Shown here piece after piece: positions 23,601 through 60,000 of a stretch of 64,000 nucleotides of DNA (its first letter is position 1; every line of letters starts with the position of its first letter). The position numbers and the translations under genes are program-made. The notes below the pieces were generated by a model that was not told the DNA's origin, did not search any database, and saw only the letters and a list, made by a program, of their open reading frames with translations. Source of the stretch: Bolinopsis microptera (Eukaryota > Ctenophora > Tentaculata > Lobata > Bolinopsidae); NCBI RefSeq assembly GCF_026151205.1, contig NC_087080.1, positions 4,319,096 through 4,383,095 on the forward strand. The letters are read 5' to 3'.

Positions 23601-26600
23601 ATTTTAAACAAAATAAAGTTGAGCTATCCCTGGAAATGAAACGATCTGCATGTGTACCTACTTACAAATTAAGCCAGACCCGCCTTGCAAGGACTTTCAG
23701 TCCTGCGAGCTCAACGGATCATGGTTGACCTAAATATTGTATTATGCCTTGACCTAAATATAATAAAATATGAGCCACAGTTCTTTCTTCTACCTAAATC
23801 TCCACACAAAATCCTGCATCGTAAAAAACTTGTTGAAAACGGTTTATAGAAATCATAAGCCAAAACTTACACTAAATACATACTATGTAAAACAAACTAC
23901 ACAGTACACAGTCATCATCCATGGTCCTTGCTAGTAGCTGTCGGGCGAATGTGCTGTTATAGGAATTATGAAGTTTAATTGGAGCATTTATTAAGTGTGT
24001 TCCATTCACCCTCTCTAGATTTTGATTGCTATTTGCTTGACATTTTTGTTGCAGTCTGATGCAGGTTTTTGATTGAGCGGGTTTTTACTTTTGCACCCTT
24101 TTTAACACTGGTTAGATATAAGTCACTGAACTGAAATCGGAATAAATGGTTAGAGTCCTTGTGAATCGGCCATGAAATGCGATATCGTGAAGGGTAATAA
24201 GATTACAAAAATTGTCCTGGCTCCTGAATTAATTATTTTGGAGGTTTTCATTCTGTTACCGTTCCTAATTTCGACTTAAACGTATTATTTGTGTTGCCTT
24301 GTCCCGAGTGGGTCACGTTGATTATCAATTGTCTTTGTATTACCTTTAGACAGTTCCATCTTATTATACTGTAGTCGAACTGAAATTGTGTTTGTTGGTA
24401 GTTAGTTTATTGTTCAGCCATGAAGTCCAGTATAGATTAGGACCTTGACTATTCGAGCTTAGTTTTAGTGAATGCTATGAACAGAATCCGAGAAGTCTTA
24501 TAAAGAAAGCTCTGTGCAATTCCATCGTTAGATTCCAAAAATAAATACCACGAGGAACTAGTCTTTGCCTTGTATTTTATTCTGTTTGCGTTCAAAGATT
24601 GTAACCCGGATGTAAGATATTATCACTTACCATAACCATTTTTCAATATAGACCGTGAAGATGTCATTTATTTTGGCTTTGCTAAAGCTCCCTTTTGTCT
24701 TCCTTCTTGAAGTCATCTACTTCATCTTTAGATGCAGGCCCAAGAAAGACATAAAAAACCAGCATATCCTGATCACTGGAGCTGGACAAGGGATTGGAGC
24801 AGAGTTTGCCCGACAGTTTGCTGCTATGGGGAACACTATTCACTGTGTTGACTGTTGATATCGTGGAAAAATTAGTAGAGAATGTTGTGGAGGAGTTGAA
24901 AAGAGATGGTCACCGAGCTTACTCGTACACATGTGATCTAACCAAGCACGAACAGGTACAGAAGCTACATGATGACATAGCAGGTGCTGGGTTTATTATC
25001 AACATGCTGGTCAACAATGCTGGAGTGGCTTTTGGAGTGGCTATCCAGAAAATGTCTCTTACTCAAATACAGCATTCCATGATGGTGAACATAGTTTCTA
25101 ATCTGTGGCTTATCAAACTCTTTATGCCGAAGATGCTTGAGCTCAATGAAGGTCACATTGTGAACGTAGCATCTCTGGCAGGGTATTTTCCATTGAGAAG
25201 TTCTACCGATTACTGTGCAGCAAAAGCAGGTTCAATTCACACTTTGAATCAACTTCGAATGGATCACATGGGAACGAACCTAAAGTTCAGTGCCGTATTA
25301 CCCTTTTTTGTGGACACCAAGATGATAACTGGTATTGATCCATCTGTTGCTATATCTTCAGAGGCCCTGGTAACCAAAGCTATTCGAGGAATCAGGGAGA
25401 ATAAAGAAGTGATTCCTGTTCCTAACATGTTCAGAGTGCTGAAAGTAATCCAAGATCTTGCTCCTCCGTACCTTATGCGAGCTTTTGTAGGAGCTACCTG
25501 GCCTACCAAGGGTTCTGATGCGGAAATGGATGCAAAATTCGTCGGACAAAGAATGAGTGAAAAAGTCGAATAAAAAATATGTGTAAAGTGGACGTGTATG
25601 GAGCATTGTAACGAACTTAAATATCTAAATATGATTCAGATTCTTAGATGTGATTTAATTGTACCTTGATTAATAGACAATCATTCAAATAACACAAAAT
25701 GTATTAAAATGAAATTTAGTTTTAATTTTTTTCATAATAATCTGATTAACTTAAGTTTAACCAAGCAAAACAGGATTCCTGCTGATAGAAACATAGTCAA
25801 AATCAAGACCACTGCTACAATATCTAAATTGTGCATCTCAATAAACGACTGGTTCAGAGTAAAAATGTTCACTAAATATTCAACATTCCTGTTCTTGATC
25901 AGTATTACTATTAATCAGTGTAAAACCTCGGCAACAACTGTTCCAGACCTCGGGCTATAATTACTAGCAATATCAACAGCTCTTTTCATGTTGGCTTTGA
26001 AAGTCCCATGCTTGGTTAAAATCTTGCCTATAGTCTTTGTAAGAGTCTGCTCAGATGGTGTCTCCCTGGTTACCATCAATCCAACCCCTTTCCTTTCTAC
26101 CTGTTTATTAAAGTAGGCCGCGGAATTTCGATTGATCCAGACTCCTGAATCTGTGAGCAGTTTGGTTGCTGAGAATTCTCCTGATTTTATTACATTCTTT
26201 TATACTACTATACTAGGTTTAACAGGATTTTGATATCATACTATTATTTTTTGTAAATATTCCATTAGAACCGCCGACATCGTCCGGATCCAAACAAAAC
26301 AATTAGTTAATTAGTTTAATTAACCTGAATTGAAGTTAAGTCTACAATAACTTCCCTCAGACGGACCTGGACCTGTCAATAGAAGAGTCGATTTTAATAG
26401 AACAGAGGATGAATCCTGCTAAAAGGAGGAGGATCTCATTCAGTACCGACTACTCTGTACCACCGTCAGGTTAGTACTTAGTACCGACTACTCTGTACCA
26501 CCGTCAGGTTAGTACTTAGTACCGACTACTCTGTACCACCGTCAGGTTAGTACTTAGTACCGACTACTCTGTACCACCGTCAGGTTAGTACTTAGTACCG

Positions 26601-29600
26601 ACTACTCTGTACCACCGTCAGGTTAGTACTTAGTACCGACTACTCTGTACCACCGTCAGGTTAGTACCGACTACTCTGTACCACCGTCAGGTTAGTACCG
26701 ACTACTCTGTACCACCGTCAGGTTAGTACTTAGTACCGACTACTCTGTACCACCGTCAGGTTAGTACTTAGTACCGACTACTCTGTACCACCGTCAGGTT
26801 AGTACTTAGTACCGACTACTCTGTACCACCGTCAGGTTAGTACTTAGTACCGACTACTCTGTACCACCGTCAGGTTAGTACCGACTACTCTGTACCACCG
26901 TCAGGTTAGTACTTAGTACCGACTACTCTGTACCACCGTCAGGTTAGTACTTAGTACCGACTACTCTGTACCACCGTCAGGTTAGTACTTAGTACCGACT
27001 ACTCTGTACCACCGTCAGGTTAGTACTTAGTACCGACTACTCTGAACCACCGTCAGGTTAGTACTTAGTACCGACTACTCTGTACCACCGTCAGGTTAGT
27101 ACTTAGTACCGACTACTCTGTACCACCGTCAGGTTAGTACTTAGTACCGACTACTCTGTACCACCGTCAGGTTAGTACTTAGTACCGACTACTCTGTACC
27201 ACCGTCAGGTTAGTACTTAGTACCGACTACTCTGTACCACCGTCAGGTTAGTACTTAGTACCGACTACTCTGTACCACCGTCAGGTTAGTACTTAGTACC
27301 GACTACTCTGTACCACCGTCAGGTTAGTACCGACTACTCTGTACCACCGTCAGGTTAGGATATAAATAAGGCCTAAAACCAAGCTGATAAGGGCTTTTGT
27401 AGCTGTGGTCTTATGAACTCACATGAGTGTAGAGGTTGTTATTTACCGGGATCTAGAGGACTAGTCAGGTACTACTGAGTTGGTTGGTTCAAAATCAAAC
27501 ACTCTAAATTAGTTTGACTTCTTGAAAGATAAAGTCAGCAAAGGTTTTATTGGAATGTGGGCACTGAACTCAAATTCATGCGTATATTACAAATTGGATA
27601 AATCAGACATATTTACAATCGAAGCCACGGACGGCTATGGAGGGGAAAGGGGTGTCGTGTGATAAGTGTTTCTCAAATTGGTTGATGTTAATGTAGTGTT
27701 AGGACGGTGAAAGGTTGTTACTTAAAAGGATTGTGTGAATGAATTCGTGGGGGAGGTGCTATTAAATCAATAAAGTTATATACTGTACATGAAGACATGA
27801 GTGTTTCATACAAATTGGTCAAAAAATGTACTATGAGTATGTCCCCAACTAAAATGATTAGTTTATGTTTAAAAACGTGAGATTTCTAATATAACTAATA
27901 CGTCATAGTAGTTTTTAAAAATTTTCAAATTTCACTTTTACATTTCACTTTGTTCGCGTGATTAATATTTAATAAATTCAGTGCTCACCCTCATAAACCG
28001 CCCTCAGAATCTCCTTCAACCTCACCAGACCAGTTTAAATCAAAGCCAGTTGTCCGGTTCACCACTCCACAGCCCACCGTCAGGCGCAGCACTGAGAGCC
28101 ACATGAGCATCGCTAAAATGGCCCTTTCTGAGGCTAGGAAAGGCGGACATCACGTGACATCGTTAAAGGACTTTATCGTTATTAAACCTATCAGGTAGAG
28201 TAACGCTAAATTGTATTTATAGAGTTATAGAGTGACGATTTTTATTAACTAGCTGACCTTTTGTAGATCGGACATTGAAAATCTGTACTGTGAATATTAG
28301 TGGGACAGAAAAATTATGTTTCATTTTTTTCTCTCACATTATCGTTTTTACACCCACAATATGCACAACGTGCATGCTGATTGCTGTTATACATCCTAAA
28401 CTGCTTGCGGAGGTAACCACCAGATTGCATGAAATTTATCCACAATTTCAGTAAAGGAGCGTACGGCAAAGTTTACCTTGCACGACGAAGAAATACAAAA
28501 GAGCACTATGCTGTTAAGGTAAGCAACACGTAACAAGTAGTCAACTCACAACCTTGCTCTGCTAATAACGTTGTAATGTTAACTCTACTGGGGTGGAGAG
28601 GGATTTTATCAAAATGGGAAACATTTTATCTGATTTGATAATATAATGATAATGTAAAGTTCACTGTCGTAGAGTAGTCACTAGAGGTTGAGAACACATC
28701 TCTCTGAAATAGAGTGGTCACTAGAGGTTGCAAATAAACCTCTCTGTTGTAGAGTGGTCACTAGAGGTTGCGAACAAACCTCTCTGTTGTAGAGTGGTCA
28801 CTAGAGGTTGCGAACAAACCTCTCTGAAGTAGAGTGGTCACTAGAGGTTGCGAACAAACCTCTCTGTTGTAGAGTGGTCACTAGAGGTTGCGAACAAACC
28901 TCTCTGTTGTAGAGTGGTCACTAGAGGTTGCGAACAAACCTCTCTGTTGTAGAGCGGTCACTAGAGGTTGCGAACAAACCTCTCTGAAGTAGAGTGGTCA
29001 CTAGAGGTTGCGAAAAAACCTCTCTGAAGTAGAGTGGTCACTAGAGGTTGCGAACAAACCTCTCTGAAGTAGAGTGGTCACTAGAGGTTGCGAACAAACC
29101 TCTCTGTTGTAGAGTGGTCACTAGAGGTTGCGAACAAACCTCTCTGTTGTAGAGTGGTCACTAGAGGTTGCGAACAAACCTCTCTGTTGTAGAGTGGTCA
29201 CTAGAGGTTGCGAACAAACCTCTCTGAAGTAGAGTGGTCACTAGAGGTTGCGAAAAAACCTCTCTGAAGTAGAGTGGTCACTAGAGGTTGCGAACAAACC
29301 TCTCTGAATTTAAATCAGACAGGGTCGGGTGATCTTCTGAAGGTTACCACGCTATTTCCCATTGTTCTGTCTCCAAACAGATATAAATAGCTAGATTTAA
29401 AAAACTAGAACTATTTAAGGTCATGAAGAAGGAAGATTTGATCAGGAAGAACATGGTGGACCAAGTAGTGACGGAGAGGGACGCTCTAGCCCTCGCTAAA
29501 TCTCCCTTCATTGTCAAGCTCTTCTACTCGTTCCAGGTCAGGAGTCAGTACTCGCACGTCATTTCTGATCATATGTTATCATACTGTATTGTGTTGTACT

Positions 29601-31414
29601 TTTTATAGGTCGTGACTCGTTTGACTCCAAAATTCTGTTGCTTCATTTTCGAATTTCGATGTGCCAGAGCGAAAATTGACTCGTGAAAATTGTACGTTTT
29701 TTGTGTTTTTATATTTCCGTGGGGCGTGGGACACAAACTGGCTAAGTCGGCTTACTTCAAACCGTTTCCTGGTCGGATATCTTAATTATTATTATCTTTA
29801 GCAAGGTCCTTTACAAACTAATAAATGGTATAAACTATTGGTTACAATTATGTAACGATTACTTTTTCAGAGTAAACAAGAAGTTTATTTTGTGATGGAG
29901 TATCTGATAGGAGGGGACCTCTGTTCTTTCCTAAGGTTAGCCCAACAATCACTTGTTTTTTTCCGGGCAGATACTGCCAAATTGTGATCATATTTACCCG
30001 CCGAAAAAGCGCCTCCCTGTTGGCGCCCCTCCCTAAAATCTCTTTTTAGAGCAGTTTTGCTAGTACCTCAGTTTTGCTAGTACCTCTGTTAATATTACAA
30101 ATTATGAATATTAACATGAACCAATGTCAAATTCTCTCCATCAGTTACGTTGGGTGTCTGGAAGAAGATCACGCAATAGTGTACGTAGCAGAAATAGCCC
30201 TGGCTCTCTGTTACCTCCACACTCACGGCATTATCCACAAGGACATCAAACCTGAGAACATGCTTATCGACCGTGCGGGCCATGTTAAACTCACCGACTT
30301 CGGCCTCTCCTCCATCAGACTCCAGCGGAAATTAACAATAAGTGACCTGGTGTACAGCCCCTACACGCGATACAGTCCCTCACGGAACTGGCGAACTCCC
30401 GGACAGTTAGCTTCCTTGACCACCAAGATAGCGTTTAAAAGTCCGGGTCCTGTCAGCTCACCTTTTTTGTCGTCCCCCACAGCCAGTATAGCTACTCCAA
30501 TTACTCGGAGGAAGAGATTTGTTCCTAAACGGTGCTCCTTCGGTAACCTCTCCAATAACAGTCTTAACATCACCAAATCTCCCACACGTTTGAGTGTAGT
30601 TAAATCGCCTGGCTGTTTGCCAGTTGTGTCGCCTGGCTTTCTGCCAGCCCCCTCGCCTGGCTCTCTGCTGGCTGTCTCTCCTAACACCAGTCTCATGGAT
30701 TCCAGCCCGGGTAACTCCTCAATAGTTTCTCATTACCGAGACGAAGACATCTCTTTCGGTGAAAACGACGATGCTGATCTCAGTGGTCATGATGAAAACT
30801 CGGGTTGTCAGAATGAAGACAAACCAGATTGTCAGAGCAATGAAGACAAATCAAGTTGTCAAAACGACGACAAGTTGTCAAAACGACGACAACTTTGTCA
30901 GGACAACGATGACAAGTCAGGTAGTGACGACAGATCGGAATCAGGCTGCGCTGAAGTACGTCAAGATGTGTCACGTGTCATCGGCACGCCTGACTACATT
31001 CCACCGGAGCTGTTGTTACACAAGACCCACACCATAGCTGCAGACTGGTGGTCATTAGGCGCGTGTTTCTACGAGATGTTAGCCGGTGTGCCTCCTTTTC
31101 ATGACTCTAATGTTCCTGATATCTTTAGGAATATTCTTAATCTGGATTTGGAGTGGCCGGAAGATATGTCTACCAATGCCAGGGAAGCTATAGAGTTGCT
31201 CCTGAAAAGTGAGCCACATCAGCGGGCAGGTCTTGATGAACTTAAAGAGCACATTTTCTTTGAAAACATAGACTGGGAAAATATGTTAGGAATGGAGATG
31301 CCGTTTGTTCCTGAGCCTGAAAATGATACTGATACGGGCTATTTTGAGGGACATAACTCTGCTTTTAACATTAAGCTCAGTGACTTTGATGGGTGCACTC
31401 TGGTGCGTGAGTAA
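17690..31414 (+). CDS. MASTL: MASTL/Greatwall-Rim15 family AGC kinase
   Basis: Ser/Thr kinase family that phosphorylates ENSA/ARPP19-type proteins to inhibit PP2A-B55 at mitosis or in nutrient signalling. Ten exons, all phases consistent, 769 aa: 17690-17917, 18126-18185, 18331-18445, 18693-18784, 26361-26469, 28008-28194, 28452-28518, 29420-29536, 29871-29935, 30145-31414. The N-terminal extension (about 260 aa) is unlike vertebrate MASTL and more like Rim15/IRE layouts. Kinase: [12 protein letters not shown] loop, YAVK lysine, HKDIKPEN catalytic loop (HKD in place of HRD), TDFGLSS. The MASTL-type insertion (RTPGQLASL, then a low-complexity acidic region of about 200 aa) splits the activation segment before [12 protein letters not shown]-tail [16 protein letters not shown] is the AGC tail. 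Intron 4 houses SDR genes; intron 5 starts with a donor-site array. Confidence 0.88.
18806..19090. repeat. 8-bp microsatellite (TTGTTAAT)n then (TTCTTAAT)n
   Basis: About 17 copies of TTGTTAAT from 18806 to 18942, a short interruption, then about 12 copies of TTCTTAAT to 19090. It starts some 20 bases after the donor of kinase exon 4 but does not contain exon sequence. Confidence 0.95.
19675..19771. mobile_element. 97-bp MITE-like inverted repeat
   Basis: Ends in a perfect 13-bp inverted repeat AATAATACCTTCG (19675-19687) / CGAAGGTATTATT (19759-19771). AT-rich flanks hide any target duplication. Inside kinase intron 4. Confidence 0.5.
20279..21166 (-). CDS. solitary LINE ORF1-like protein
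   Basis: 295-aa open frame inside kinase intron 4, opposite strand. A helical N-terminal half with a coiled coil ([20 protein letters not shown]) is followed by an RRM-like/CTD region: [59 protein letters not shown]. This order is typical of ORF1 proteins of Jockey/CR1/L2-like LINEs; no PHD finger is present, unlike the 9.5-kb copy. No ORF2 or RT remnant follows on the minus strand, so it is a truncated or ORF1-only copy. The frame is fully open despite that, pointing to a recent insertion or to retention. Confidence 0.65.
   Translation of the reverse strand: MAAVDDTEIDSIIFKAEDWMTRVMDQFGCEEPIHITSVLCKHFLNKRKLNLEDKEKFAAFFSESFHLVRFQNDNLKKMKNRLSSIKDQLIENQKLVISAQESIIDCKEKQLQKQLQAVQTVVKDMVESQFKSYSDTVQENVMVCQPASSVTAETLKEVVKSVVQAEDRSKNIMFFGLPEDSSKDLNKTVEEIFEEIGLKPAMELSRVGKSKEKTTRPVKVTLSSSSTAYQIISQARKLRQSEKFSSVFISPDRSLEDRVKHRLLVQNLHKKKEAEPNKHHYIKGGTIHTEDKSVR
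21167..22199. other. intronic spacer with short tandem duplications
   Basis: At about 21256-21355 the segment TGCTATTAGTGTAGGG..TGAACTTGA is repeated three to four times with variations. Two related blocks, TTTCCATTTTGGGAATRGGT followed by poly-T, lie at about 21840 and 22050. From about 22105 the sequence is duplicated upstream of the second SDR copy, including CCTTGTATTTTATTCTGTTT. Confidence 0.5.
22200..23105 (+). CDS. short-chain dehydrogenase, SDR16C type (HSD17B11/13, RDH10-like)
   Basis: NAD(P)-dependent retinol/steroid dehydrogenase family, usually ER- or lipid-droplet-anchored. Intronless, 301 aa from the ATG at 22200. An N-terminal hydrophobic anchor [20 protein letters not shown] (3-22) is followed by RCRPKKD. 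The Rossmann motif TGAGQGIG is at 39-46, NNAG at 116-119 and the catalytic set is N141-S169-Y182-K186 (YCAAK). The acceptor TTCAATATAG lies 13 bases before the ATG. AATAAA is at 23467-23472. The gene lies wholly within kinase intron 4 on the same strand and is tandemly duplicated 2.46 kb downstream. Substrate cannot be told from sequence. Confidence 0.85.
   Translation: MSFILALLKLPFVFLLEVIYFIFRCRPKKDIKNQHILITGAGQGIGAEFARQFAAMGNTIHCVDIVEKLVENVVEELKRDGHQAYSYTCDLTKHEQVQKLHDDIAGAGFIINMLVNNAGVAFGVSIQKMSLTQIQHSMMVNIVSNLWLIKLFMPKMLELNEGHIVNVASLAGYFPLRSSTDYCAAKAGSIHTLNQLRMDHMGTNLKFSVVCPFFVNTKMITGIDPSVAISSVALVTKAIRGIRENKEVIPVPNMFRVLKVIQDIAPPYLMRALIVATSSTNGADAEIDAKFVGQRMSEKVE
23106..24660. other. spacer between SDR copies
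   Basis: 3' UTR of the first SDR copy with AATAAA at 23467-23472; the 23441-23532 segment recurs at 25811-25908. The rest is AT-rich with no gene. At about 24567-24654 the upstream flank of SDR copy 1 is repeated. Confidence 0.5.
24661..25573 (+). pseudogene. SDR16C tandem copy broken by a 7-bp duplication
   Basis: About 95% identical to the 22200-23105 gene. At about 24850-24857 the sequence GTTGACTGTTGATATC replaces GTTGATATC. The 7-nt tandem duplication shifts frame and makes a TGA after residue 65 (..HCVDC). The remaining 240 codons are intact in the other frame, including NNAG and YCAAK, so this is the single clear lesion and the duplication is young. The start context differs (acceptor TTTTTCAATATAG, then ACCGTGAAG before ATG). 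Unless an unannotated splice bypasses the duplication, it is not a functional enzyme. Confidence 0.8.
25920..26183 (-). other. unassigned coding-like open frame without start
   Basis: Minus-strand frame of about 80 codons ending at a TGA near 25920. It reads [36 protein letters not shown] and [20 protein letters not shown], with protein-like composition. It has no ATG and no sure acceptor. It may be an exon or old fragment of an unknown gene or mobile element inside kinase intron 4. Not identified. Confidence 0.25.
26442..27353 (+). repeat. 5' splice-site minisatellite, kinase exon 5/intron 5
   Basis: The last 28 bases of exon 5 (AGTACCGACTACTCTGTACC, then ACCGTCAG) plus the donor GTTAGTACTT are repeated in tandem as 38-bp units, with some 31-bp units lacking TTAGTAC. 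By count there are 25 CCGTCAG|GTTAG junctions. Only the first (26469) follows full exon sequence. Using a later donor would read into an in-frame TAG (TCA GGT TAG) at once, so later donors would truncate the kinase. Confidence 0.9.
27354..28007. other. remainder of kinase intron 5
   Basis: Non-repetitive AT-rich intron after the donor array, ending in the acceptor AACCGCCCTCAG at 28007. No gene seen. Confidence 0.5.
28670..29308 (+). repeat. 40-bp minisatellite with a hairpin in each unit, kinase intron 7
   Basis: About 16 units of GTAGAGTGGTCACTAGAGGT then TGCGAACAAACCTCTCTGTT, with alternating TGTT/TGAA variants. Each unit has a 7-bp stem AGAGGTT-GCGAACA-AACCTCT. It lies 150 bp after the donor of exon 7 and about 110 bp before exon 8, and does not copy exon sequence. 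Confidence 0.92.
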
Positions 31415-31739
31415 ATTGTGATTAAGAGTTAGATAATATTATGTAGTTATAGTTTGGGCTCCAGATTTATGCAGAATTTAAAGTTTAAGATTTGATCTAT
31501 TTTTAGTAATTTAAATTCGAGGGGTACATTTCCACCCAATTATAAACGGTCGTTTGGAGTTGTTTTGTCGTGGCGCGGAGTCGTTTTCTGTGGACTTAAT
31601 CGCGCGCTTAGAAAGTCCGCAAAATTTGAATTGACGTCAATTCAAATTAGTCGCGACGTAGGTGAATGACATGACCCATAACAAAGGAGTAATTGAGCTG
31701 ATATAGACCACTTATTTCTGTTTTCATTCAATCTTTTCA
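31415..31739. other. kinase 3' region with palindromic CRE-like site
   Basis: No gene. A perfect 26-bp palindrome at 31623-31648 is centred on TGACGTCA, the full ATF/CREB site. GC-rich words (GTGGCGCGGAG, ATCGCGCGC) lie just before it. Confidence 0.6.
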
Positions 31740-33115
31740 TTTTCCGAAGGATTTGTCAAGTTGTGTCGTATCCCATTTCTTGTCCTATGATTCAAAAACT
31801 GAAAATGATTTTTCCATTTATTCGGCGATTTTGACTTCCAATACTTCAAATTGTTCTCATACAATCCTCTGTTTACTGATTAATTGGTCATTTGATAAAA
31901 TATTTGAAAATGGGACAGAATTTGTAAAATATGAATTTTCGTTTTGTTAAGATTTCTGCAGTGAGGTTCCTCCGACCGGAATCAAACTTATAGCACCCCA
32001 ATCGTATCATTTGCCATCTATAGTTGACTGAATAATTGGTTTCGGGTGAGAAATTCAGTCAAAACTGTAAAATTTCGTTCCTGGAAGTTTCATCTTCAAA
32101 AACTGAAAATGGGACAGAGAATGGGACAATATGATTTTTCAATTTTCTTGGGGATTTTGACTTCCAGTGCCTCAATTTGGTTTCAAACCATCATCAATTA
32201 ACTGACTAATTAGTCTCTGAGCAAAAGATCCACCCAATCTGTCAAATTTGTGTTCAGAAAATTTCATATTTGAAAATGGGACAGGATTTGTAAAATATGG
32301 ATTTTCGTTTTGTTAAGATTTCTGCAGTGAAGTTCCTCCGACCGAAATCAAACTTCTAGCACCCCAATCGTGTCATTTGCCATCTATAGTTGACTGACTA
32401 ATTGGTTTTGGGAGACAAATTTAGTCAAAACTGTAAAATTTCGGTCCTGGAAGTTTCATCTTCAAAAACTGAAAATGGGACAGATAATGGGACAATATGA
32501 TTTTTCAATTTTCTTGGGATCTTGACTTCCAGTGCCTCAATTTGGTTTCAAACCATCATCAATTAACTGACTAATTGGTCTCTGAGCAAAAGATCCACCC
32601 AATCTGTCAAATTTGTGTTCAGAAAATTTCATATTTGAAAATGGGACAGAATTTGTTAAGTATGAATTTTCGTTTTGTTAAGATTTCTGCAGTGAGGTTC
32701 CTCCGACCGGAATTAAACTTCTAGCACCCCAATCGTATCATTTGCCATTTAAAGTTGACTGAATAATTGGTTTCGGGTGAGAAATCAAAACTGTAAAATT
32801 TCGGTCCTGGAAGTTTCATCTTCAAAAACTGAAAATGGGACAATATGATTTTTCAATTTTCTTGGGATCTTGACTTCCAGTGCCTCAATTTGGTTTCAAA
32901 CCATCATCAATTAACTGACTAATTGGTCTCTGAGCAAAAGATCCACCCAATCTGTCAAATTTGTGTTCAGAAAATTTCATATCTGAAAATGGGACAGAAT
33001 TTGTAAAGTATGAATTTTCGTTTTGTTAAGATTTCTGCAGTGAGGTTCCTCCGACCGGAATCAAACTTATAGCACCCCAATCGTGTCATTTGCCATGTAT
33101 AGTTGACTGACTAGC
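31740..33115. repeat. about 360-bp satellite, roughly four copies
   Basis: Units marked by GGGACAGAATTTGTAAAATA near 31913, 32277, 32644 and 32992 (spacing 364, 367, 348). Shared landmarks: AGATTTCTGCAGTGAGGTTC, TAGCACCCCAATCGT, TTGACTTCCAGTGCCTCAAT. The last copy is cut at about 33115, within the 3' end of a minus-strand open exon. Confidence 0.88.
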
Positions 33116-36070: not shown

Positions 36071-36088
36071 CCAACACTGAACACAGCC

Positions 36089-39030
36089 TCAACTCCCCAT
36101 ACTCTGATCACTATCATGACTCAGTTCACTCCGGAGTCTGGTAAGGATACCCTCAAGTTCCTTCACTCTGCCGTTGTGCGACTTAGCTAAGCTTTTGTAC
36201 TGGTTGTAGTTCATTTTGGGGTCACATGGCATTATCATGCTGTACTGAGCAAGGATTAGAGCTTGTCTTCTCTGCTTCTGCAACGATAAGATAAGATTAC
36301 TATACGCTTTAAACTTAAATACAAACTGAATTCAGGAAGGTTTTTTGTTTGAGATATGTTATACATACCACTAGACAATATTGCAGATATCAGATGTAAT
36401 GAAACGTAATTATATCTTGAAAACTGTTTCTTTCCCAACTACAAACCTTGTGCCAGATAAATAATAGAATTAAACAACTATTCAAGGTATCTAAGTTTGT
36501 ACTAAGTAATCAGTATCTGTTCTTTGAACAATAATCCAAGTTTTATCTCGTACATACCAGCTCGTAAAGCATAACATCACAATTACATACCAGCTCGTAA
36601 AGCATAGCATCACAATTACATACCAGCTCGTAAAGCATAGCATCTTGATTACATACCAGCTTGTAAAGCATAGCATCACAATTACATACCAGCTCGTATA
36701 GCATAGCATCACAATTACATACCAGCTCGTAAAGCATAGCATCACAATTACATACCAGCTCGTATAGCATAGCATCACAATTACATACCAGCTCGTAAAG
36801 CATAGCATCACAATTACATACCAGCTCGTAAAGCATAGCATCACAATTACATACCAGCTTGTAAAGCATAGCATCACAATTACATACCAGCTCGTAAAGC
36901 ATAGCATCACAATTACATACCAGCTCGTAAAGCATAGCATCACAATTACATACCAGCTCGTAAAGCATAGCATCACAATTACATACCAGCTCGTAAAGCA
37001 TAGCATCACAACTACATACCAGCTCGTAAAGCATAGCATCACAACTACATACCAGCTCGTAAAGCATAGCATCACAATTACATACCAGCTCGTAAAGCAT
37101 AGCATCACAATTACATACCAGCTGGTAAAGCATAGCATCACAATTACATACCAGCTCGTAAAGCATAGCATCACAATTACATACCAGCTCGTAAAGCATA
37201 GCATCACAATTACATACCAGCTCGTAAAGCATAGCATCACAATTACATACCAGCTCGTAAAGCATAGCATCACAATTACATACCAGCTCGTAAAGCATAG
37301 CATCACAATTACATACCAGCTCGTAAAGCATAGCATCACAATTACATACCAGCTCGTAAAGCATAGCATCACAATTACATACCAGCTCGTAAAGCATAGC
37401 ATCACAATTACATACCAGCTCGTAAAGCATAGCATCACAATTATGTGAAAACTCCTCCAAACTCCTCTCGAAAGGAGGCACAGCTACTTCAGGGCCAGGT
37501 TTAGTGGTAACACTGTCTACCGTGGAGTTCTGGGTAAAGTTCACTCCTGCACTCTTCATTAGTGTCTGGGGTAGGGTTATAATTAGAAAGATAATTAGAT
37601 AATTAGAAAGATAATTAGGGGTGTTATAATTAAAAGTTCTCCAAGTTTAGATGAATACCATTTAAAATACTATAAATATTACAAGTATTACAGCACTGCA
37701 CCCTGGTTGTATTCAACAAGAAATCAAGTAACGGGGTATAGATACGTGAAGGAGCTTCAAAAGCTAGCATTATATCGGGGTCGTACCTGCATAGTGCATA
37801 CTGTATCGACAATGCTAATCCTCTCCAGTTCTACACAGTATAAAAGTAAATACTCACGTGTAAGCTAGTTTTAAGAGTGACCATGTTTGGTAAATACTCA
37901 CGTGTAAGCTAGTTTTAAGAGTGTTCATGTTCGGTAAATACTCACGTGTAAGCTAGTTTTAAGAGTGTTCATGTTCGGTAAATACTCACGTGTAAGCTAA
38001 TTTAAGAGTTCCATGTTCGGTAAATACTCACGTGTAAGCTAGTTTTAAGAGTGTCCATGTTTGGTAAATACTCACGTGTAAGCTAGTTTTAAGAGTGTCC
38101 ATGTTTGGTAAATACTCACGTGTAAGCTAGTTTTAAGAGTGTCCATGTTCGGTAAATACTCACGTGTAAGCTAGTTTTAAGAGTGTCCATGTTTGGTAAA
38201 TACTCACGTGTAAGCTAGTTTTAAGAGTGTCCATGTTTGGTAAATACTCACGTGTAAGCTAGTTTTAAGAATGTTCATGTTCGGTAAATACTCACGTGTA
38301 AGCTAGTTTTAAGAGTGTTCATGTTCGGTAAATACTCACTTGTAGGCTAGTTTTAAGAATGTCCATGTTCGGTAAATACTCACGTGTAAGCTAGTTTTAA
38401 GAATGTTCATGTTCGGTAAATACTCACGTGTAAGCTAGTTTTAAGAGTGTTCATGTTCGGTAAATACTCACTTGTAGGCTAGTTTTAAGAATGTCCATGT
38501 TTGGTAAATACTCACGTGTAAGCTAGTTTTAAGAGTGTCCATGTTTGGTAAATACTCACGTGTAAGCTAGTTTTAAGAGTGTCCATGTTTGGTAAATACT
38601 CACGTGTAAGCTAGTTTTAAGAGTGTCCATGTTCGGTAAATACTCACGTGTAAGCTAGTTTTAAGAGTGTCCATGATCGGTAAATACTCACGTGTAGGCT
38701 AGTTTTAAGAGTGTTCATGTTTGGTAAATACTCACGTGTAAGCTAGTTTTAAGAGTGTCCATGTTTGGTAAATACTCACGTGTAAGCTAGTTTTAAGAGT
38801 GTCCATGTTCGGTAAATACTCACGTGTAAGCTAGTTTTAAGAGTGTCCATGTTCGGTAAATATTCACGTGTAAGCTAGTTTTAAGAGTGTCCATGTTTGG
38901 TAAATACTCACGTGTAAGCTAGTTTTAAGAGTGTCCATGTTTGGTAAATACTCACGTGTAAGCTAGTTTTAAGAGTGTCCATGTTTGGTTTCAGTTCAGT
39001 AGAAAGATCCGGTACTTGGGGTTGAGCCAT
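36089..39030 (-). CDS. MED29: Mediator complex subunit 29
   Basis: Tail-module-associated subunit of Mediator (Drosophila Intersex). Three minus-strand exons, all phase 0: 39030-38956 (25 codons, MAQPQVPDLSTELKPNMDTL..), 37565-37416 (50 codons, TLMKSAGVNFTQNSTVDSVT ... PPFERSLEEFSHNCDAMLYE) and 36277-36089 (62 aa and stop, containing NYNQYKSLAKSHNGRVKELE). Together 137 aa. The join LKTSLH|TLMK mirrors family LKESLQTLMK, and FERSLEEF mirrors FDKCLEEF. The protein lacks the Gln/Pro-rich N-terminus of vertebrates. Both introns begin with a tandem array that copies the preceding exon end and its donor. In intron 2 the array is in frame and open, so isoforms with extra 11-residue repeats are possible. 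Confidence 0.82.
36552..37442 (-). repeat. in-frame 33-bp splice-donor minisatellite, MED29 exon 2/intron 2
   Basis: 27 units. On the minus strand each is AATTGTGATGCTATGCTTTA then CGAGCTG|GTATGT, i.e. the last codons of exon 2 (NCDAMLYEL) plus a 5' splice site. The functional exon end is the first unit (37416). The unit is 33 bp with no stop in the exon frame, so each later donor adds exactly VCNCDAMLYEL. Scattered variants (SCDAM, YQL, YKL, NQDAM, NCDVM) show the copies are not all identical. A second frame on the same strand is also open across the array only because 33 is a multiple of three. Confidence 0.93.
37846..38988 (-). repeat. 44-bp splice-donor minisatellite, MED29 exon 1/intron 1
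   Basis: About 26 units. On the minus strand each is CCAAACATGGACACTCTTAA then AACTAGCTTACAC|GTGAGTATTTA: the last 33 bases of exon 1 plus the GTGAGT donor. The exon-proximal copy (38956-38988) is the one preceded by the start codon. 44 is not a multiple of three, and a second-donor product would reach a TGA in the next copy. Variants include TTGTAGGC for GTGTAAGC and one 42-bp unit. Confidence 0.93.
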
Positions 39031-51605: not shown

Positions 51606-52559
51606 ATGAATGAACAAGACGAAGAGCGCAGCCCCAACCCTGTGGAAAAGTTTTGTGAAGTCCTCGTTTTGTCACTGTTTCTTCTATTTATGTTTCCTAG
51701 GATGAGCATAAATTTTCTGCGGCCGCCCGGGATATATAGTATAGACAGTGGCGAACAACCTGAAGATAAATATCCCTCGAGGTGTTTAAAGATGTGCCAT
51801 ACTCTTCAACTAAATGTTAATAACCTTGAAGAAGCTTTCAAAGGTAACAGTGACCTTTGTGAAACAACAGCAGCTCTCTCCCTCGGTGAAATCAGTGTAT
51901 ATAGTTCTCCATTGAGTGCACCATTCAGTAGCTCTAAAGCTTCCATTCGAAGTTCCATGCAATATCAGTACCTCCTTGTGGACTTTCATGCTTTTGTGGT
52001 TTTTAGTACAAGTGATGGAACGTGGTGGGCACTCGATAAAACGGCTGAAGGTATATTCATTAGCTGGGGAGAGAATAAACATTCGGTTTTAGAATGTTTC
52101 GATGGACATTTACGTCCCAACCCAAGGCGAAGATATAATGAAATGATTTTACCACTTGCCAGTGATGTGTCAGATCGTACTATTGATGTTCTAGTTCGCC
52201 GTTTAACAAAAATATTGAAATCTAATAAGTACGATTTGATTGAAAAAAACTGCCAACATTTTGCCAAAGAAATATTTGATAAATTAGCAATAGATAATAC
52301 TTGGGAACTATCTACAGTTTCTGACTTGACAAGCCCATTAACGCTTTTATCAAGACTCTTAAGAAATTTAAATGGTGGATACTCTCAGGCAGAGTATTTG
52401 TACATTGTCTTCCTTTTCTATGAACTATACCTCCTATTCGGAGAGAGCAGAGAAATAGAAACCAACCATTATCTGTTTGTAGTGTACACAGTTATTTACG
52501 TTACCGGAATTGAAATATCGATTATGTTATGTCTGTACAATTCCCATTTGTTTTCTTAG
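51606..52559 (+). CDS. papain-fold (LRAT/PPPDE-like) membrane protein
   Basis: 317 aa, intronless. A hydrophobic N-terminal helix (VLVLSLFLLFMFPRM, about 19-33) precedes a domain with LLVDFHAFVVFSTSDGTWWA and DLIEKNCQHFAKEIFDKL. The His in DFHAF and the NCxHF Cys are placed as in the NlpC/P60-like LRAT superfamily (NCEHF in LRAT); PPPDE peptidases are an alternative. Two C-terminal TM helices follow (YLYIVFLFYELYLLFG, YLFVVYTVIYVTGIEISIML). The enzyme could be an acyltransferase or thiol hydrolase; substrate unknown. Its TAG stop (52557-52559) doubles as the AG of a pyrimidine-rich acceptor 16 bases before the next gene's ATG. Confidence 0.5.
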   Translation: MNEQDEERSPNPVEKFCEVLVLSLFLLFMFPRMSINFLRPPGIYSIDSGEQPEDKYPSRCLKMCHTLQLNVNNLEEAFKGNSDLCETTAALSLGEISVYSSPLSAPFSSSKASIRSSMQYQYLLVDFHAFVVFSTSDGTWWALDKTAEGIFISWGENKHSVLECFDGHLRPNPRRRYNEMILPLASDVSDRTIDVLVRRLTKILKSNKYDLIEKNCQHFAKEIFDKLAIDNTWELSTVSDLTSPLTLLSRLLRNLNGGYSQAEYLYIVFLFYELYLLFGESREIETNHYLFVVYTVIYVTGIEISIMLCLYNSHLFS

Positions 52560-52575
52560 TTATTCTGCCGAAACC

Positions 52576-53238
52576 ATGTTAAGTGTAATATACATTGGGC
52601 TACTCTGTATTCTCATCTTAGAAGCTAAATATTATTCATTTCTTGGTATCATCAGAAAACGAGCCATTCAGTACCGAAAGATGTGTCAGTCAGCTACTTG
52701 GTTTGGAAAATATATATCTTTACCTCTGGGTTATACGATGGTTTATGTAGTTCCTGTTTGTTTAGTTATTGAGTCAGTGCTAATATCGCTGTTTAAATGT
52801 GTAGGAATTATACTTTATTCGATACATTTTGTTACAACGCACCAACCACTTGAGATTGACGAGTTTATGACCAATTTGATCAATAAGGTGGTTAATTTAG
52901 GTCCTGTTTGTTTAATTATTGCCTTAGTGCTACATTTATTGCTGTTTGCATGTGTAGCAATTATACTTTATTTGATAGATTGTTTTTCGCATCAACCATT
53001 TGAGATTGACGAGTTCGTGACCAACTTGACGGTTAATGGCGGTTTATTTATTGAGTCAGTGCTAATATTGCTGTTTGAATGTGTAGCATTTATACTTTAT
53101 TTGATACATCTTCTTACACCGCACCAACCACTTGAGAATGATGAGAAAGGCCCTGAAATTAATGTTTTTATTCCCATTACATTATTGTATATACCCACTG
53201 TAAGACTTCTAAATTTAACCCCTAGATATATACAGTAA
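52576..53238 (+). CDS. multi-TM protein with three internal repeats
   Basis: 220 aa from ATG at 52576. A module of about 47 aa is repeated three times: PVCLVIESVLISLFKCVGIILY ending THQPLEIDEFMTNLI; PVCLIIALVLHLLLFACVAIIL ending SHQPFEIDEFVTNLT; LFIESVLILLFECVAFILYL ending PHQPLENDE. Each has one or two hydrophobic helices and an HQP(L/F)E acidic loop. It follows the papain-fold gene directly, in another frame. Either it is a separate cistron starting after a splice acceptor, or the two are joined by an unusual splice or frameshift. No known family recognised. Confidence 0.5.
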   Translation: MLSVIYIGLLCILILEAKYYSFLGIIRKRAIQYRKMCQSATWFGKYISLPLGYTMVYVVPVCLVIESVLISLFKCVGIILYSIHFVTTHQPLEIDEFMTNLINKVVNLGPVCLIIALVLHLLLFACVAIILYLIDCFSHQPFEIDEFVTNLTVNGGLFIESVLILLFECVAFILYLIHLLTPHQPLENDEKGPEINVFIPITLLYIPTVRLLNLTPRYIQ

Positions 53239-54686
53239 CACGAATTACTGATTAGCGGATTGAAATACCAGACCAGCTTAATTACAGACTTTATTGCATG
53301 ACGAAATTATAATAATTAATTGGTATAGGTATTTATATATATTTATGAGGTTGAATGCGATCTCGGAAAGCAGGCCTCCCCAGTGTGAGCTCGAGAGCGG
53401 GAGCCCTGCCGTCAGAGGTACGTATCGAGGATGACTCGGACCGAAAATCTTTTCAAGGTTTTTCTGGAAACTACTTTTGTTCAGGCGAAAATATTTTTTC
53501 GATTTTCAAAGTCCAGACCTAATATTTTTGAAAGTTTTTCTGGGAACCACTTTTTTCCAGTGTTACCCTGATCATTATGAGCCGAGAATATTTTTCGGGA
53601 CCTAGCCCTTTTTCCTGAAAATTAATTTGCGCATGTGCCGTGCATAAATTCTGCTTTCTTGTATTGTCGTAATTTGAAGTTTACTTTTTTATTCATATTA
53701 CAAATAGCTATTATAATAATTTTGAGAAACAACTTTAATTTTATCTGATTCCATAGACCATAATTTCTGTCGGAATTCAACTTAAATAGGAATAGTCCAT
53801 TTAATGGTAAAATGGTCAAAGCTTTTACAGAATCCATTATCTGGCTGTTTGGAATGAATCTTATCTTGGTAATAATGTAGTAAATCCTGGTATTTCAGTA
53901 AAAACCTGGTATTTGACTCACTTTGGTCTACTTGCTGTGAGGTGTCTCAGCTACATGGGTTGGGGGTCCCCCCTTTAAAAAAAGAGAAAGTACATCTACA
54001 TTGTAGTTTCATAATTTTATAATTCAATAGATTGCTGATTGTTTAGTACACTCTAATGTAACTTACAAAATAAACTTATGACTAAAGTTCTCTTTAAAAT
54101 AATGCCCAGCTACAAAATTCGTGATCTTTAGTGTACTGTACTGTAATATAATGGACTGTACTGTGAGGCATAGTACTATACTATGTACCCACTTTTTTCT
54201 TTATCAGTTGTGACGGAATTGTAATGAACAAAATCCTTATAATCATTTATGATATGTTTGATTTCTTGTTAATGTTTGTCATTCAAATTTGGTAGACGGC
54301 CCCAACGTTAATGTGGCTCTTGCTATGTGTTGGTTCAGCCGAATTAATTATTATGTAATAAAGTTTATTTTTCTCGTTAGTTGTCATCCGGCCAAACATT
54401 AAGCAACTTATATTGCAGTACCATTTATCAATTAGTATATCAAAATATGTCATTGTAATTTTGCATGGCTGAAATGTAACGCTTGATTTATATATATAAT
54501 GATTAATTGAATTTTCAAATAAAAAAAAGTAAAATCCGAATTGGAATATTATTTATGAGTCGCATAGTTGAAATGTTTCTTGGGTAAAATTTGTATTGAT
54601 CCCATTTGATGCGACAAGGCAAAGACTCCTATCAGAAACCCACTATCCGTGTTTTGATTATTAGTGATACTTTTGCAGCATAGACA
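53239..54686. other. intergenic DNA upstream of CISD3-like gene
   Basis: Contains a short duplicated stretch (AAAGTTTTTCTGG.AACYACTTTT at about 53450-53560) and the reversed repeat shared with 47049-47316 at about 53928-53980. A good acceptor, TACTTTTGCAG (ends 54677), is nine bases before the next ATG. No gene. Confidence 0.45.
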
Positions 54687-56185
54687 ATGCTCCAGCGAAG
54701 ATTAACTCAAATTATAAGGAGACAGCTGAGCAGTCGACCTGTTGTTGAGTCAAATCAGAATTTCCCAAAGCCTTTTAAGGTAAGTGGGACAAAGCATGAT
54801 TCTTAGAAAAGAATAGACTAGAATAAAATCAAATAGATTTTTTTGTATAATAAAATAGCGTACCAATTTGTTTGCAATGTTAAAAAAAACATTTCAGTTG
54901 GAGAAAGGAAAGAAATATAAATGGTGCACGTGTGGTCACAGTGAGATACAGCCTATGTGTGATGGTTCCCATCGTAAATCTGGGTACATCCCAGTTAGAT
55001 TCACGGCTGAGAAAACAGAGACTGCACTATTGTGTTGCTGTAAGAACACCAGTAACCCTCCATATTGCGATATGACTCACTTTAAGGTTAATCAAATAAT
55101 CTGATATTTATTTATGCTCCAAGTTGGACAATGACAGTTTGAAATGAACGAATGCTCAAATTTTGTTTAAACTTTGCTCAAATTTTGATTTTGATACAAT
55201 AATTTTCACTTAACCTGGATTTCAGATCCTAAGAGGAAATCTCCTGAAGAACTTTACATCCCCTAAAATAGCTACACCCACTGATAAACCTCTTGTTGCT
55301 GCCAGATTACCGAGTTTTCAAAAGTTGGAAGAACGTGAGTGCTATTCTTTACTTTATTCTATTCAACTTTCAGAATCGCATATTTAGTGGTTTGAAAATA
55401 CGATCACCCAATAAAAAGACATAAATGGTTCTGTTCGATATGTGTTGGGCCCCAAAAAGCCCAACACATATCGTAAATCCGAAAAGGGCCCTAGAAATCG
55501 GGGCCTTTTGGGGCCTTTTGACTCTGTATTTTTGGCATGAATTTGGTTCAATGTTTATAGACCATAATCTCCATGTAAATACACTTAAATAAACACAAAA
55601 GTACTGTGCAAGTAGTCAGATAATATCATTAAAGCACTTAGCATATATCAAAATTGATGAAATTTAAGTTAATTCTAGGGCCCCAAAAGGCCTTACACAT
55701 ATCGAAAAGCCAAAAAGGGCCCTAGAAATCGGGGCTTTTTGGGGCCTTTTGGGGCGTTGCCCCCCCCCCCCCCTAAGATGTATACAGTTCTCACAATAAT
55801 TTCGTTATAGGTAAGACATACATGTGGTGTGCCTGTGGAGCCAGCAAGACCCAGCCTTTCTGTGACAACTCACATGCTTGTAGTTCAATGAAACCACTAG
55901 CTTTTACACCAGAAAAAACCAAACCCAGGTATGTTTCATACTTAATGTTATATATATACATACTAATTTTTAGCTTGAAATTTTATAACTCCCGATTATT
56001 TTGCTTTTCTAAATCCATCAACACTATAATATGAGTAAAGTATTGAGACGTTTAACAGTTAACTTACTCTACACGACCTTGTCAGGTGGTTGTGTCAGTG
56101 CAAGCAGACTAAGGATGCCCCTTACTGTGACGGGACACACCTGGATGTGGAGATACAGACTGCGGTTGAGGGACAACCTTTGTAG
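54687..56185 (+). CDS. CISD3: CISD3-like iron-sulfur protein with four CDGSH motifs
   Basis: Mitochondrial NEET-family 2Fe-2S protein. Five exons in phase: 54687-54779, 54898-55086, 55226-55334, 55811-55928, 56086-56185; 202 aa. Exon 1 (MLQRRLTQIIRRQLSSRPVV) is an amphipathic mitochondrial presequence. Cluster sites: WCTCGHSEIQPMCDGSH, CCCKNTSNPPYCDMTH, WCACGASKTQPFCDNSH, LCQCKQTKDAPYCDGTH. Vertebrate CISD3 has two; here the two-site unit is duplicated, with the second halves linked by about 45 residues. Site 2 has CDM and site 3 CDN in place of CDG, but all the C-x-C..C..H ligands are kept. The short poly-C/GGGGCCTTTT repeats in intron 3 are unrelated. Confidence 0.88.
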
Positions 56186-57005
56186 CTCAAATGTTGACAC
56201 TACTTTGGTTGTGCTACTCATCAACTGTTTTATTTAATACTCATAGCCATGATTGGACTGGATGGTTATGTGTTGTTGTGGGATTTTATAATTGTTCATT
56301 TTTGGACGGATTTGTACCTTAAGGAAACGTGACCCTTTGTTAAGGTGGTAGTGGAAGTTAAACTTTTAATTTATTAAAATATTAAAAGAGATTTATTACA
56401 TGATACATTGTGTGTATCACATTTACATGTTTGTTTTTGGATCGTAAAGCACTTCTTTTGGAGTTGCAGTGACTTTGTAAATAATAGTTGATAATCAGTC
56501 TGTACCACTGTACTATCAGATAAGTTAATATAATTTATAATATTAGTAAGATGCCAAACACTGTGTGCTGCATTGAATTTGATTGAAATTGTTGTGTGAT
56601 TGTTCACACATTATTGTGTGATTGTTCACATTTTCACACCCTCAGAATAAAAGTAAAGTTTTACAGTTTTAGGAATATTTATCAGTTTTCACAGTATTAC
56701 TAATTTATTTCCCATACATATCATGCAACTTACTCCAGAGTAACATTACTATTCACTATAGTATTACTTGTCCCTTTTCTTACTTCGCATTTATTCGCCA
56801 CTTCTACGAATTAAAATTTGCTAATTTGCCTGTAAATCTCACTCTTTACAACTCGATTTGCCTTTATAAAAAGATGCTAATACTGAAAAATACTGAAGAA
56901 TACAAGAATATATAACATATTATTAACATAATTAACATATTATTATCATAATTAACAATATTATAAGTTACTACCTAAAGTTAATCTAAACAACTTCTAG
57001 ATAGG
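56186..57005. other. CISD3-septin spacer
   Basis: AT-rich. Short direct duplication ATTGTGTGATTGTTCACA at about 56590-56630, and ATTATTAACATA repeats at about 56915-56955. An acceptor-like CTTCTAGATAG directly precedes the septin ATG. No other gene. Confidence 0.45.
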
Positions 57006-60000
57006 ATGGTTGTAAGGTCTGATAATCGCTCAGCTCACGTTAAGGTTCTTCGTTCTCTGGTACGTGTTTTATTTGATAATATAGTTTATTCTTGCTCATT
57101 AATATTATTTTAAACACTGAATACACTAATTTATACACAAGTTTTCTTCTTTTAAACCCAATCGTAAGATCTTTAAGATTTATACCTGAAACCTGTCCCC
57201 TAGCTATTGTACCACAGAACCTGCAATACTCCCGTAGTACTAACTATAACCTTCCCCCAAAATACACTAAAACTCCCCTTAATAATTAACTAACTAAAAC
57301 CCCCCTTAATAATTAACTAAAACCCCCTCCCTCCATAGGGACAAGATGGAAGGACACTGCCCCTAATAATTAATTAACTAAAACCCCCCTCCCTCCATAG
57401 GGACAAGATGGAAGGACACTGCCCCTAATAATTAACTAACTAAAACCCCCTCCCTCCACAGGGACAAGATGGAAGGACACTGCCCCTACAAGGACATGTA
57501 GGGTTCCCTTATTAACTAACTAAAACCCCCTCCCTCCACAGGGACAAGACGGAAGGACACTGCCCCTACAAGGACATGTAGGGTTCCCCTTAATAACTAA
57601 CTAAAACCCCCTCCCTCCACAGGGACAAGATGGAAGGACACTGCCCATATCCAAAAATTTTTTAATTTCCTACATTCTCAATTTTTTCGTTTTCTGTGGC
57701 CCGCTCGCTTCGCTCGCATAAAACATCTTTGTATTTGCGCGGTTCAAAGATTTTTCATGGCTGATTCCAGATTCTCAATTTTACTTTTTTAGGGCCCGGA
57801 ATGCTTTTTAATAGATAATCCTAGGTTACTTTTGGGGGCGAAGCCCCCGAAAATTTTGGAAATTTAAACTAGATTTGGCCTCCTGGAACGAATCTGACAA
57901 TGGAGAACGATTTTAGCATACTATTTTCTGATCTCAATTTTTATTGGGATAAATTGTCTGGATTCTAGAATCCCTAAACACTTGGCTTAACTAAAGCACG
58001 AAATAATCCTAGGTTACTTTTGGGGGCGAAGCCCCCGAAAATTTTGGAAATTTAAACTAGATTTGGCCTCCTGGAACGAATCTGACAATGGAGAACGATT
58101 TTAGCATACTATTTTCTGATCTCAATTTTTATTGGGATAAATTGTCTGGATTCTAGAATCCCTAAACACTTGGCTTAACTAAAGCACGAAATAGGAGACA
58201 GCATGAAGTATCAAGAGTTTATAATTTTAGTCTGCTCTTTCACTTAAATTCCTACTGAAATATTATCGAAAATTCTCAGAGTTGGCTCTCGAATTTCCTA
58301 CTTTTTGTCAATAATTTCCTACTTTTAAAAATTTCCTACATTCTTAGAATGCGAGAATGCGGGTTTTTGGATATGGGGGACACTGCCCCTACAAGGACAT
58401 GTAGGGTTCCCCTTAATAACTAACTAAAACCCCCTCCCTCCACAGGGACAAGACGGAAGGACACTGCCCCTACAAGGACATGTAGGGTTCCCCTTAATAA
58501 CTAACTAAAACCCCCTCCCTCCACAGGGACAAGACGGAAGGACACTGCCCCTACAATACAAGGACATGTAGGGTTCCCCTTAATAACTAACTAAAACCCC
58601 CTCCCTCCACAGGGACAAGATGGAAGGACACTGCCCCTACAAGGACATGTAGGGTTCCCCTTAATAACTAACTAAAACCCCCTCCCTCCACAGGGACAAG
58701 ACGGAAGGACACTGCCCCTACAAGGACATGTAGGGTTCCCCTTAATAACTAACTAAAACCCCCTCCCTCCACAGGGACAAGACGGAAGGACACTGCCCCT
58801 ACAAGGACATGTAGGGTTCCCCTTAATAACTAACTAAAACCCCCTCCCTCCACAGGGACAAGATGGAAGGACACTGCCCCTACAAGGACATGTAGGGTTC
58901 GACTCCCTCCCCGACCAGTTGGTTAACAAGTGTGTTAACCTTGGCTTTGACATGAACATACTCTGTGTAGGAGAGACTGGTATTGGTAAATCAACTCTCA
59001 TGGACTGTCTCTTCAAGGCTAACTTTGATGGTGAGTAAACTCTTACTTCCTGGTTACTTAACATATGAACATGTTACGACGTGTTCATATTGGGCATGAT
59101 CTGGATTTAATTAATCTTCTATCTGCTTTAAAGAGATGTAGTAGGAAATATTACTTGTAGATTTAACGGAATGTATAATTAACTGTATATTCTTATATTT
59201 TAAAAAGTGTAGTGACGCGTCCCACAAATATGCAGCTAAACTATGTAACCTGCATACCTGCATACCTCCATACCTGCATACCTGCCCCTCTGGTAGACAT
59301 ACACATTAACAAACCACACTTCATGTCCACTGTAAATTAGAAGAGAGTCCGTGTTATTATATACCTGAGGCTGCTATCTAGTGTACAATGTGTGAGGGAG
59401 AAGAGAGGAGTAGTGTTTACTAGTACAATTCTGCTGGGTTATTAGAAGTACACTAATTAGTAAGCTTAGTAATCTATGTGTACTGTGTGGCTCTCCGGTG
59501 TCAGCTTACATTACTTATATCTACCAATACACTGCTAGTAGTTATAATATATACCAGTACTGATAATTACATTACATACGAAATAATCAGTGCACATTTA
59601 TCAGTACATATTAAATAATCAGTACACATTTATCAGTACATATTAAATAATCAGTACACACTACACATTCACTAAGTTATTCATCTACTACAAGACAATC
59701 CTCCCTGCTAATTACAGTTTATCGCATATAAGTTCGCTTTACACTCATTGAATAACTTGGCACACTACTTTAAACATAAGTAGTAAATTGACCAGTACAC
59801 TACAAACCCTAATAACTTTGCACACTGTATCTACACACACTGCACGCCACACCCTACACTTCATATTACAGAACTTACTTTTTATTCCAACTTTTGTAAA
59901 GCTTCCCCCCTGAATGATGAAACCAAATAAGGACACAGAAATGTCAAACTTAGATCATTTTGACTACTGCATAAACTATAAATAAACTGATAAAAGCGGA

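Follow-up and report, generated by a model that had tools for sequence, protein, structure and literature searches.

Minisatellite arrays spanning exon-intron junctions in the ctenophore Bolinopsis microptera, and a case for their origin by ordinary repeat growth under selection

Results

Four arrays overlap splice junctions in kinase, MED29 and septin genes

We analysed a 64,000-nucleotide stretch of the Bolinopsis microptera genome (C9:4319096-4383095; the window), in which four introns, one in a predicted Greatwall-like kinase gene, two in MED29 and one in a septin gene, carry tandem arrays that overlap a splice junction, each unit copying the exon end together with a splice site. It appears rather likely that these are ordinary, locally born minisatellites that selection has filtered, with the extra splice sites as passengers. 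Arrays were called with Tandem Repeats Finder (TRF), unit details were obtained by exact sequence reading, and genome-wide searches covered the whole assembly (264,652,675 bases, 232 contigs). An earlier note on this DNA had described the four arrays, and TRF together with exact reading confirmed them as real and as placed.

The donor array of the kinase gene (26442..27358, + strand) comprises 24.9 units of 38 bp, with 31-bp variants, and each unit consists of the last 26 nt of the exon followed by GTTAGTACTTAG; exact reading gave 25 copies of CAG|GTTAG. The host exon (26361..26469, +), whose acceptor was placed at 26360 by eye, ends in phase 1 at the first donor, 26470, and the frame resumes in an exon at 28008 (G|AATCTCC), a join likewise made by eye. 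The encoded protein matched PF00069 (E=2.6e-41) and scored 192.9 bits against greatwall, compared with 138.1 for the next-best kinase; by similarity, it is Greatwall-like. The earlier note had numbered the host intron as the fifth of the gene, a label that we dropped, as the exons proposed upstream of the array were found to lack support. A fifth array in the window (28669..29308, +; 40 bp x 16) lies in the interior of an intron of the same kinase gene and includes no splice junction, thus providing a contrast to the junction array within one gene.

In MED29, on the minus strand, exon 1 (38956..39030; MAQPQV...TSLH; phase 0) is followed by the donor array of intron 1 (37846..38989), with 26.0 copies of a 44-bp unit made of 33-34 nt of exon and GTGAGTATTTA. 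Exon 2 (37416..37565; phase 0; PF11568), which ends in ...CDAMLYEL, is followed by the donor array of intron 2 (36551..37443), with 27.1 copies of a 33-bp unit made of 25 nt of exon and GTATGTAA; exact reading gave 27 copies of CTG|GTATGTA. When the first donors are used, exons 1 and 2 join exon 3 (start 36277) as a single open reading frame (ORF) ending in a stop codon, and the identity of the gene is given by PF11568 (E=1.9e-11). The unit of intron 2 consists of 11 open codons, so that all 27 donors preserve the frame; because the unit is open, frame cannot pick the donor, and the end of exon 2 was placed by homology only. This unit, the one tested among the four window arrays, is private: all 18 exact 29-mers found in the genome fall within its own array. 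A single open frame of 367 codons runs through exon 2 and the array of intron 2 (36543-37646, minus strand) and encodes an 11-residue repeat; the array, if retained, would remain translatable.

The septin array is an acceptor array, for which TRF reported rows of 62, 80 and 81 bp over 57310-58900. It lies in two blocks on the plus strand, the first (57310..57646) with 5 acceptor copies and the second (58378..58900) with 6 copies of about 81 bp, and the last of the 11 acceptors opens a coding exon at 58856. Exons further downstream in the window match PF00735. The blocks are split by an insert (57644..58377, +) resembling a miniature inverted-repeat transposable element; its terminal inverted repeats match perfectly over 14 nt (57644-57657 / 58364-58377), and it contains a 188-bp perfect direct duplication (57815-58193).

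The kinase, MED29 intron 1 and septin arrays reach a stop codon within about one unit, as judged by eye. The proposal in the earlier note that the gene-compatible copy is always exon-proximal therefore holds by frame for these three and fails as a frame argument for MED29 intron 2, where every donor is in frame. Coding sequence is preserved, as had been claimed, provided that the exon-proximal site is used, and the introns are lengthened.

The four arrays are minisatellites by structure, with head-to-tail units of 10-100 bp in many copies that are mostly 93-98% alike (TRF). They share this design with intronic minisatellites or variable number tandem repeats, including privacy where tested, but differ in overlapping a splice junction, with the exon end and splice site repeated in each unit. 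Introner elements give many introns a shared design that includes the splice sites. Here, in contrast, the four arrays have mutually unrelated consensus units, each copying its adjacent exon, and no single element recurs at many unrelated introns.

Junction arrays recur at other loci

The recurrence suggested in the earlier note extends to other genes, as arrays straddling junctions were found in septin and kinesin loci sampled without regard to repeats. Donor straddlers were seen in septin L009 (29 bp x 9.9) and kinesins L039 (33 bp x 52) and L040 (rows of 11/21/32 bp), and acceptor straddlers in kinesin L038 (21 bp x 24), in kinesin L039 (26 bp x 112, in an interval with a query gap) and, by reading, in septin L006 (61 bp). 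The first donor suits the protein in L009, L039 and L040, and the last acceptor does so in septins L006 and L007 and kinesins L038 and L039.

The septin paralogues L006 and L007 (both on C12) are about 95% alike, and at the shared junction each has nine acceptor copies, arranged differently in the two, which on comparison of the sequences is turnover in place. A dispersed ACGTCA-type repeat has enlarged some of these copies: in L007, and in one instance in L006, the unit reaches 149 bp and takes in this repeat as well as the acceptor and the start of the exon. The L038 acceptor array is split at ~4566-5416 by an insert that may be a TTAA-type element, with TTAAGGCCACAGGGGGG and CCCCCCTGTGGCCTTAA at its inverted ends. 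An interior array is accompanied by a mobile element in at least one case: the kinesin duplicates L036 (C13:5067800-5070900) and L037, 98-99.8% identical, differ by an insertion of 932 bp at ~940-1872 of L036, which L037 lacks. The inverted ends of this insertion match, 11-bp tandem repeats lie inside it, and it has an 8-9 bp target duplication.

Further arrays were found by their donor motif (L001, L004, L011-L017 and L050-L054), and being ascertained in this way, they were rejected as a sample for enrichment. L016 has a homeodomain above the Pfam cut-off (5e-22), matches in L011 (1e-4, 0.0056) and L051 (Sushi, 0.024) fall below it, and L015, L001 and L004 gave no Pfam match. A coding junction was not established for L012, L013, L014, L017, L050, L052, L053 and L054.

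Most unit lengths shift the reading frame

We listed 15 straddlers in which, as a minimum, an open frame leads into the junction. Their unit lengths are 38, 33, 44 and 81 in the window, and elsewhere 61 (L006), 29 (L009), 29 (L011), 32 (L015), 35 (L016), 34 (L051), 41 (L004), 21 (L038), 33 and 26 (L039) and 11 (L040). Eleven of these are not multiples of 3 and four are, with five expected by chance. Among the four, the septin 81-bp array and the L039 donor array run into an in-frame stop (by eye), MED29 intron 2 is open throughout, and L038 is open across short runs.

Placement of arrays in a sample blind to repeats

Across 36 sampled gene loci (156,336 bp), tandem arrays take up 10.3% of the sequence, and with arrays so frequent in the genome, several are expected within 64 kb. 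The accessible part of PMC8527503, on the ctenophore Hormiphora, gives a comparable overall load (TRF 14 Mb, 13%) and makes no mention of splice junctions. Four of the five window arrays placeable in introns (unit at least 20 bp, at least 3 copies) straddle a junction, a higher share than in the blind sample described below (5-6 of 30), but a biased one because the window was selected for its junction arrays.

For the blind sample, genes were chosen by Pfam matches regardless of repeats (septins, TCP1, myosin heads and kinesins), and compact clusters of exon matches were retained at 6 septin loci (from 13 regions), 12 further loci and 20 kinesin loci; L009 and L010 are pieces of a single gene, as are L023 and L024. 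Script-built splice models gave 149 intron intervals, from which we derived a stricter set of 104 reliable introns and a wider set of 129 intervals, which includes 25 with a query gap. Unreliable splice models were dropped by hand, 11 from the wider set and 12, one in a paralogue, from the stricter set, and placement tests also omitted one interval with out-of-order matches and the paralogue loci L007 and L037. Junctions of five gap introns in the wider set were assigned by eye. Expected counts assume that seeds fall evenly, and the end class combines straddling arrays with those at most 20 nt away from where an intron ends.

Among the 104 introns, with 26 array clusters, 3 arrays straddled a junction (3.0 expected, P=0.61), 6 were at most 20 nt from an end (2.6 expected, P=0.03) and 17 were interior; the end class thus numbered 9 against 5.6 expected (P=0.06; 0.02-0.09 with other cut-offs). 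The wider set held 30 arrays with a TRF score of at least 100, of which 5 were straddling, 6 abutting (2.3 expected, P=0.02) and 19 interior. The excess of arrays over junctions that the earlier note had anticipated was not significant for straddlers alone (5 vs 3.0 expected, P=0.16), while the broader end class did show an excess (11 vs 5.3, P=0.004). When all 45 arrays in the wider set were counted, 6 straddled (3.9 expected, P=0.17) and 14 were of the end class (7.35 expected, P=0.003); with units of at least 20 bp (20 arrays), the figures were 5 (2.5 expected, P=0.08) and 8 (4.1 expected, P=0.02). L006 was scored as interior in the wider set since its TRF row stops 169 nt before the acceptor; reading shows copies entering the exon, which makes the straddlers 6. 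About 4-5% of the sampled introns hold a straddling array. Junction arrays are thus common and perhaps 2-fold enriched, without overwhelming targeting.

Tandem occurrence of splice-site words in the genome

We counted spaced tandem triplets of splice-site words across the assembly, as matches rather than arrays, so that large arrays dominate the figures. The donor word AGGTRAGT gave 2,819 triplets in 19,244 occurrences (14.6%) and its reversed form 211 in 15,618 (1.4%), while CAGGTAAGT gave 450 in 2,463 and its reversed form 0 in 1,212. The acceptor word TTTYCAGR gave 991 triplets compared with 243 when reversed. Pooled controls of 16 9-mers gave 485 (GATNCANGA) and 2,996 (AGNACNTAG), about 1.4% and 9% of some 33,500 occurrences each, a denominator estimated from base composition rather than counted. 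The donor word is therefore high, yet not far outside the range of unrelated words. We rejected the zero for reversed CAGGTAAGT as proof of targeting, as control 9-mers often sit in arrays, and did not take the acceptor triplets as strong support, as many among the matches listed have periods of 10-15 bp.

Discussion

Probable growth of ordinary minisatellites under selection

The arrays could have formed as follows. Short tandem duplications would arise by slippage or microhomology-mediated copying, and the resulting arrays would expand and homogenise through slippage or unequal exchange. Arrays within coding exons would be purged and those within introns tolerated, and an array straddling a junction would survive only when each unit held a whole splice site. 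The exon-proximal site would keep its full context, and exon definition, in which the nearest sites are paired across the exon and the shortest exon results, would remove the remaining copies as intron. To judge from frame and homology, splicing probably ignores the other copies, and these would then be neutral passengers. On this view, many introns of this satellite-rich genome begin or end with dozens of copies of their border probably because the arrays do little harm while the exon-adjacent copy is used. Even seeding is supported by the blind sample, where straddlers are not significantly above expectation, and even seeding followed by selection yields the observed design with no special process. 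Also in its favour are the large share of arrays in the sampled loci, the fit of exon-proximal copies to the protein, the private unit of MED29 intron 2, the preponderance of frame-shifting unit lengths, the lack of a consistent constraint on the extra sites and the differing layouts of the septin paralogues. The earlier note had proposed a dedicated process that duplicates intron borders; this is not established, since a complete splice site in each unit can follow from selection alone.

Four observations weigh against this explanation. The end class of arrays is in excess, where a filter alone predicts none. Donor words form many more triplets than their reversed forms. Frame is also kept by other copies, all of them in MED29 intron 2 and some in kinesin L038, and is thus no proof of exon-proximal use there. 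Finally, the intronic part of the donor unit is short, 6-12 nt in all nine arrays tested (units 29-44 bp), where even seeding above a 6-nt minimum predicts otherwise; under such even placement this has a chance of 4e-6 (4e-4 when the six arrays outside the window are taken alone), in a test that was post hoc and in which three of those six (L011, L051 and L015) have weak or no domain support. The test covered donor straddlers with units of at least 29 bp and left out L004 and the eight arrays without an established coding junction. Selection on ordinary minisatellites does not explain the short intronic part, which is the best lead toward a targeted mechanism.

Less likely alternatives: splice-site-directed amplification and use of the extra sites

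Alternatively, duplications might start at active splice sites, so that units would end just behind the donor, for which U1-bound nascent RNA, R-loops, exon-edge chromatin or microhomology between the donor hexamer and the exon are candidate causes. Exon-donor microhomology at the duplication ends, read by eye, is about 5 nt in L016, 4-5 nt in L011 and the kinase and 0-3 nt in most others. The intron-end excess, the triplet counts for donor and acceptor words and the uniform intronic part all speak for such direction. However, straddlers alone show no significant excess, the triplet background varies widely between control words and is dominated by large arrays, and the intronic part is about 20 nt in L004, 5 nt in L050 and about 24 nt in L052 and L053, while L001 and L032 begin exactly at the donor with no exon part. 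Given the modest end excess and the shortness of the intronic part, a directed mechanism stays under consideration, and we regard it as doubtful.

A stronger form can be drawn from the same observations. The duplicated units end 6-12 nt behind the donor, roughly at the limit of its pairing with the 5' end of U1 snRNA. Splice sites might then be hot spots of tandem duplication, with duplications ending about where U1 pairing ends; spliceosome binding to nascent RNA would mark the DNA to be re-copied, introns would grow from their borders, and a strict choice of the shortest exon would ignore up to about 110 near-identical competitor sites. We consider this combination decidedly unlikely.

The additional donors and acceptors might instead be used, either as alternative sites or, by binding U1 snRNP, as arrays that shield introns from premature 3'-end formation. 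Each of eight arrays examined has 10-58 near-consensus extra donors, and the frame through all copies of MED29 intron 2 is open. On the other side, most straddling unit lengths shift the frame, and acceptor arrays share the same anatomy without a donor. Splice-site columns lack consistent constraint, being less variable than the rest of the unit in five of eight donor arrays and more variable in three, in a test where the MED29 intron 1 columns were off by one base and those of L016 and L011 spanned the site only partly; in five of the eight, the copy that codes, which is the first one, is identical to the consensus of its array. Hence the suggestion of the earlier note that the arrays stock genes with ready-made alternative sites was not supported, and use of the extra sites in either role is very improbable.

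Intron gain, assembly and known systems

New introns might also be born when an exon segment bearing AGGT is duplicated in tandem (the Rogers model), and several units do carry AG|GT. The window arrays, though, sit at one intron end with unrelated sequence at the other, and are not pairs of sites derived from one duplicated exon segment; the intron positions in septins, kinesins and homeobox genes are, we presume, old. The related cases in the accessible part of PMC4974935 are tandem duplications over splice signals in ATP2A1, potato RdRp and, in many copies, fission yeast (24-bp AGGT repeats); these share with our arrays a duplication across splice signals that keeps the coding sequence, but here existing introns lengthen at one end and we saw no sign of a new intron. 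We find this origin highly implausible. Collapse or expansion during assembly can scarcely account for the arrays: copy numbers rest on one assembly, but copies hold distinct variants, insertions break up the arrays, and the class recurs at many unrelated places (nine and five arrays among the matches listed for the donor words, plus the blind sample). Beyond tandem-duplication intron gain as treated in the accessible part of PMC4974935, no earlier description of splice-junction arrays was found by title or abstract among the papers listed by searches of a full-text collection in which most subscription journals are absent.

The arrays show a way for introns to lengthen without altering the protein. 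They also amount to natural competition assays, with about 9-112 donors or acceptors, nearly identical and lined up one after another, in conserved genes such as septins, kinesins, MED29 and a homeobox gene. Mostly only the exon-proximal copy among them yields an intact protein (the frame makes exceptions of MED29 intron 2 and some of the L038 array). The choice of 5' and 3' splice sites thereby becomes testable in an early-branching animal, where use of the first donor and last acceptor would correspond to exon definition. In vitro, the intron-proximal of two strong donors wins, in contrast to a first-donor choice.

Elsewhere in the window, non-LTR retrotransposon-like ORFs with reverse transcriptase motifs were recognised by eye at 9475-13457. 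Two neighbouring, near-identical ORFs resembling short-chain dehydrogenases, also read by eye, lie at 22047-25573 and are probably the result of a recent tandem gene duplication.

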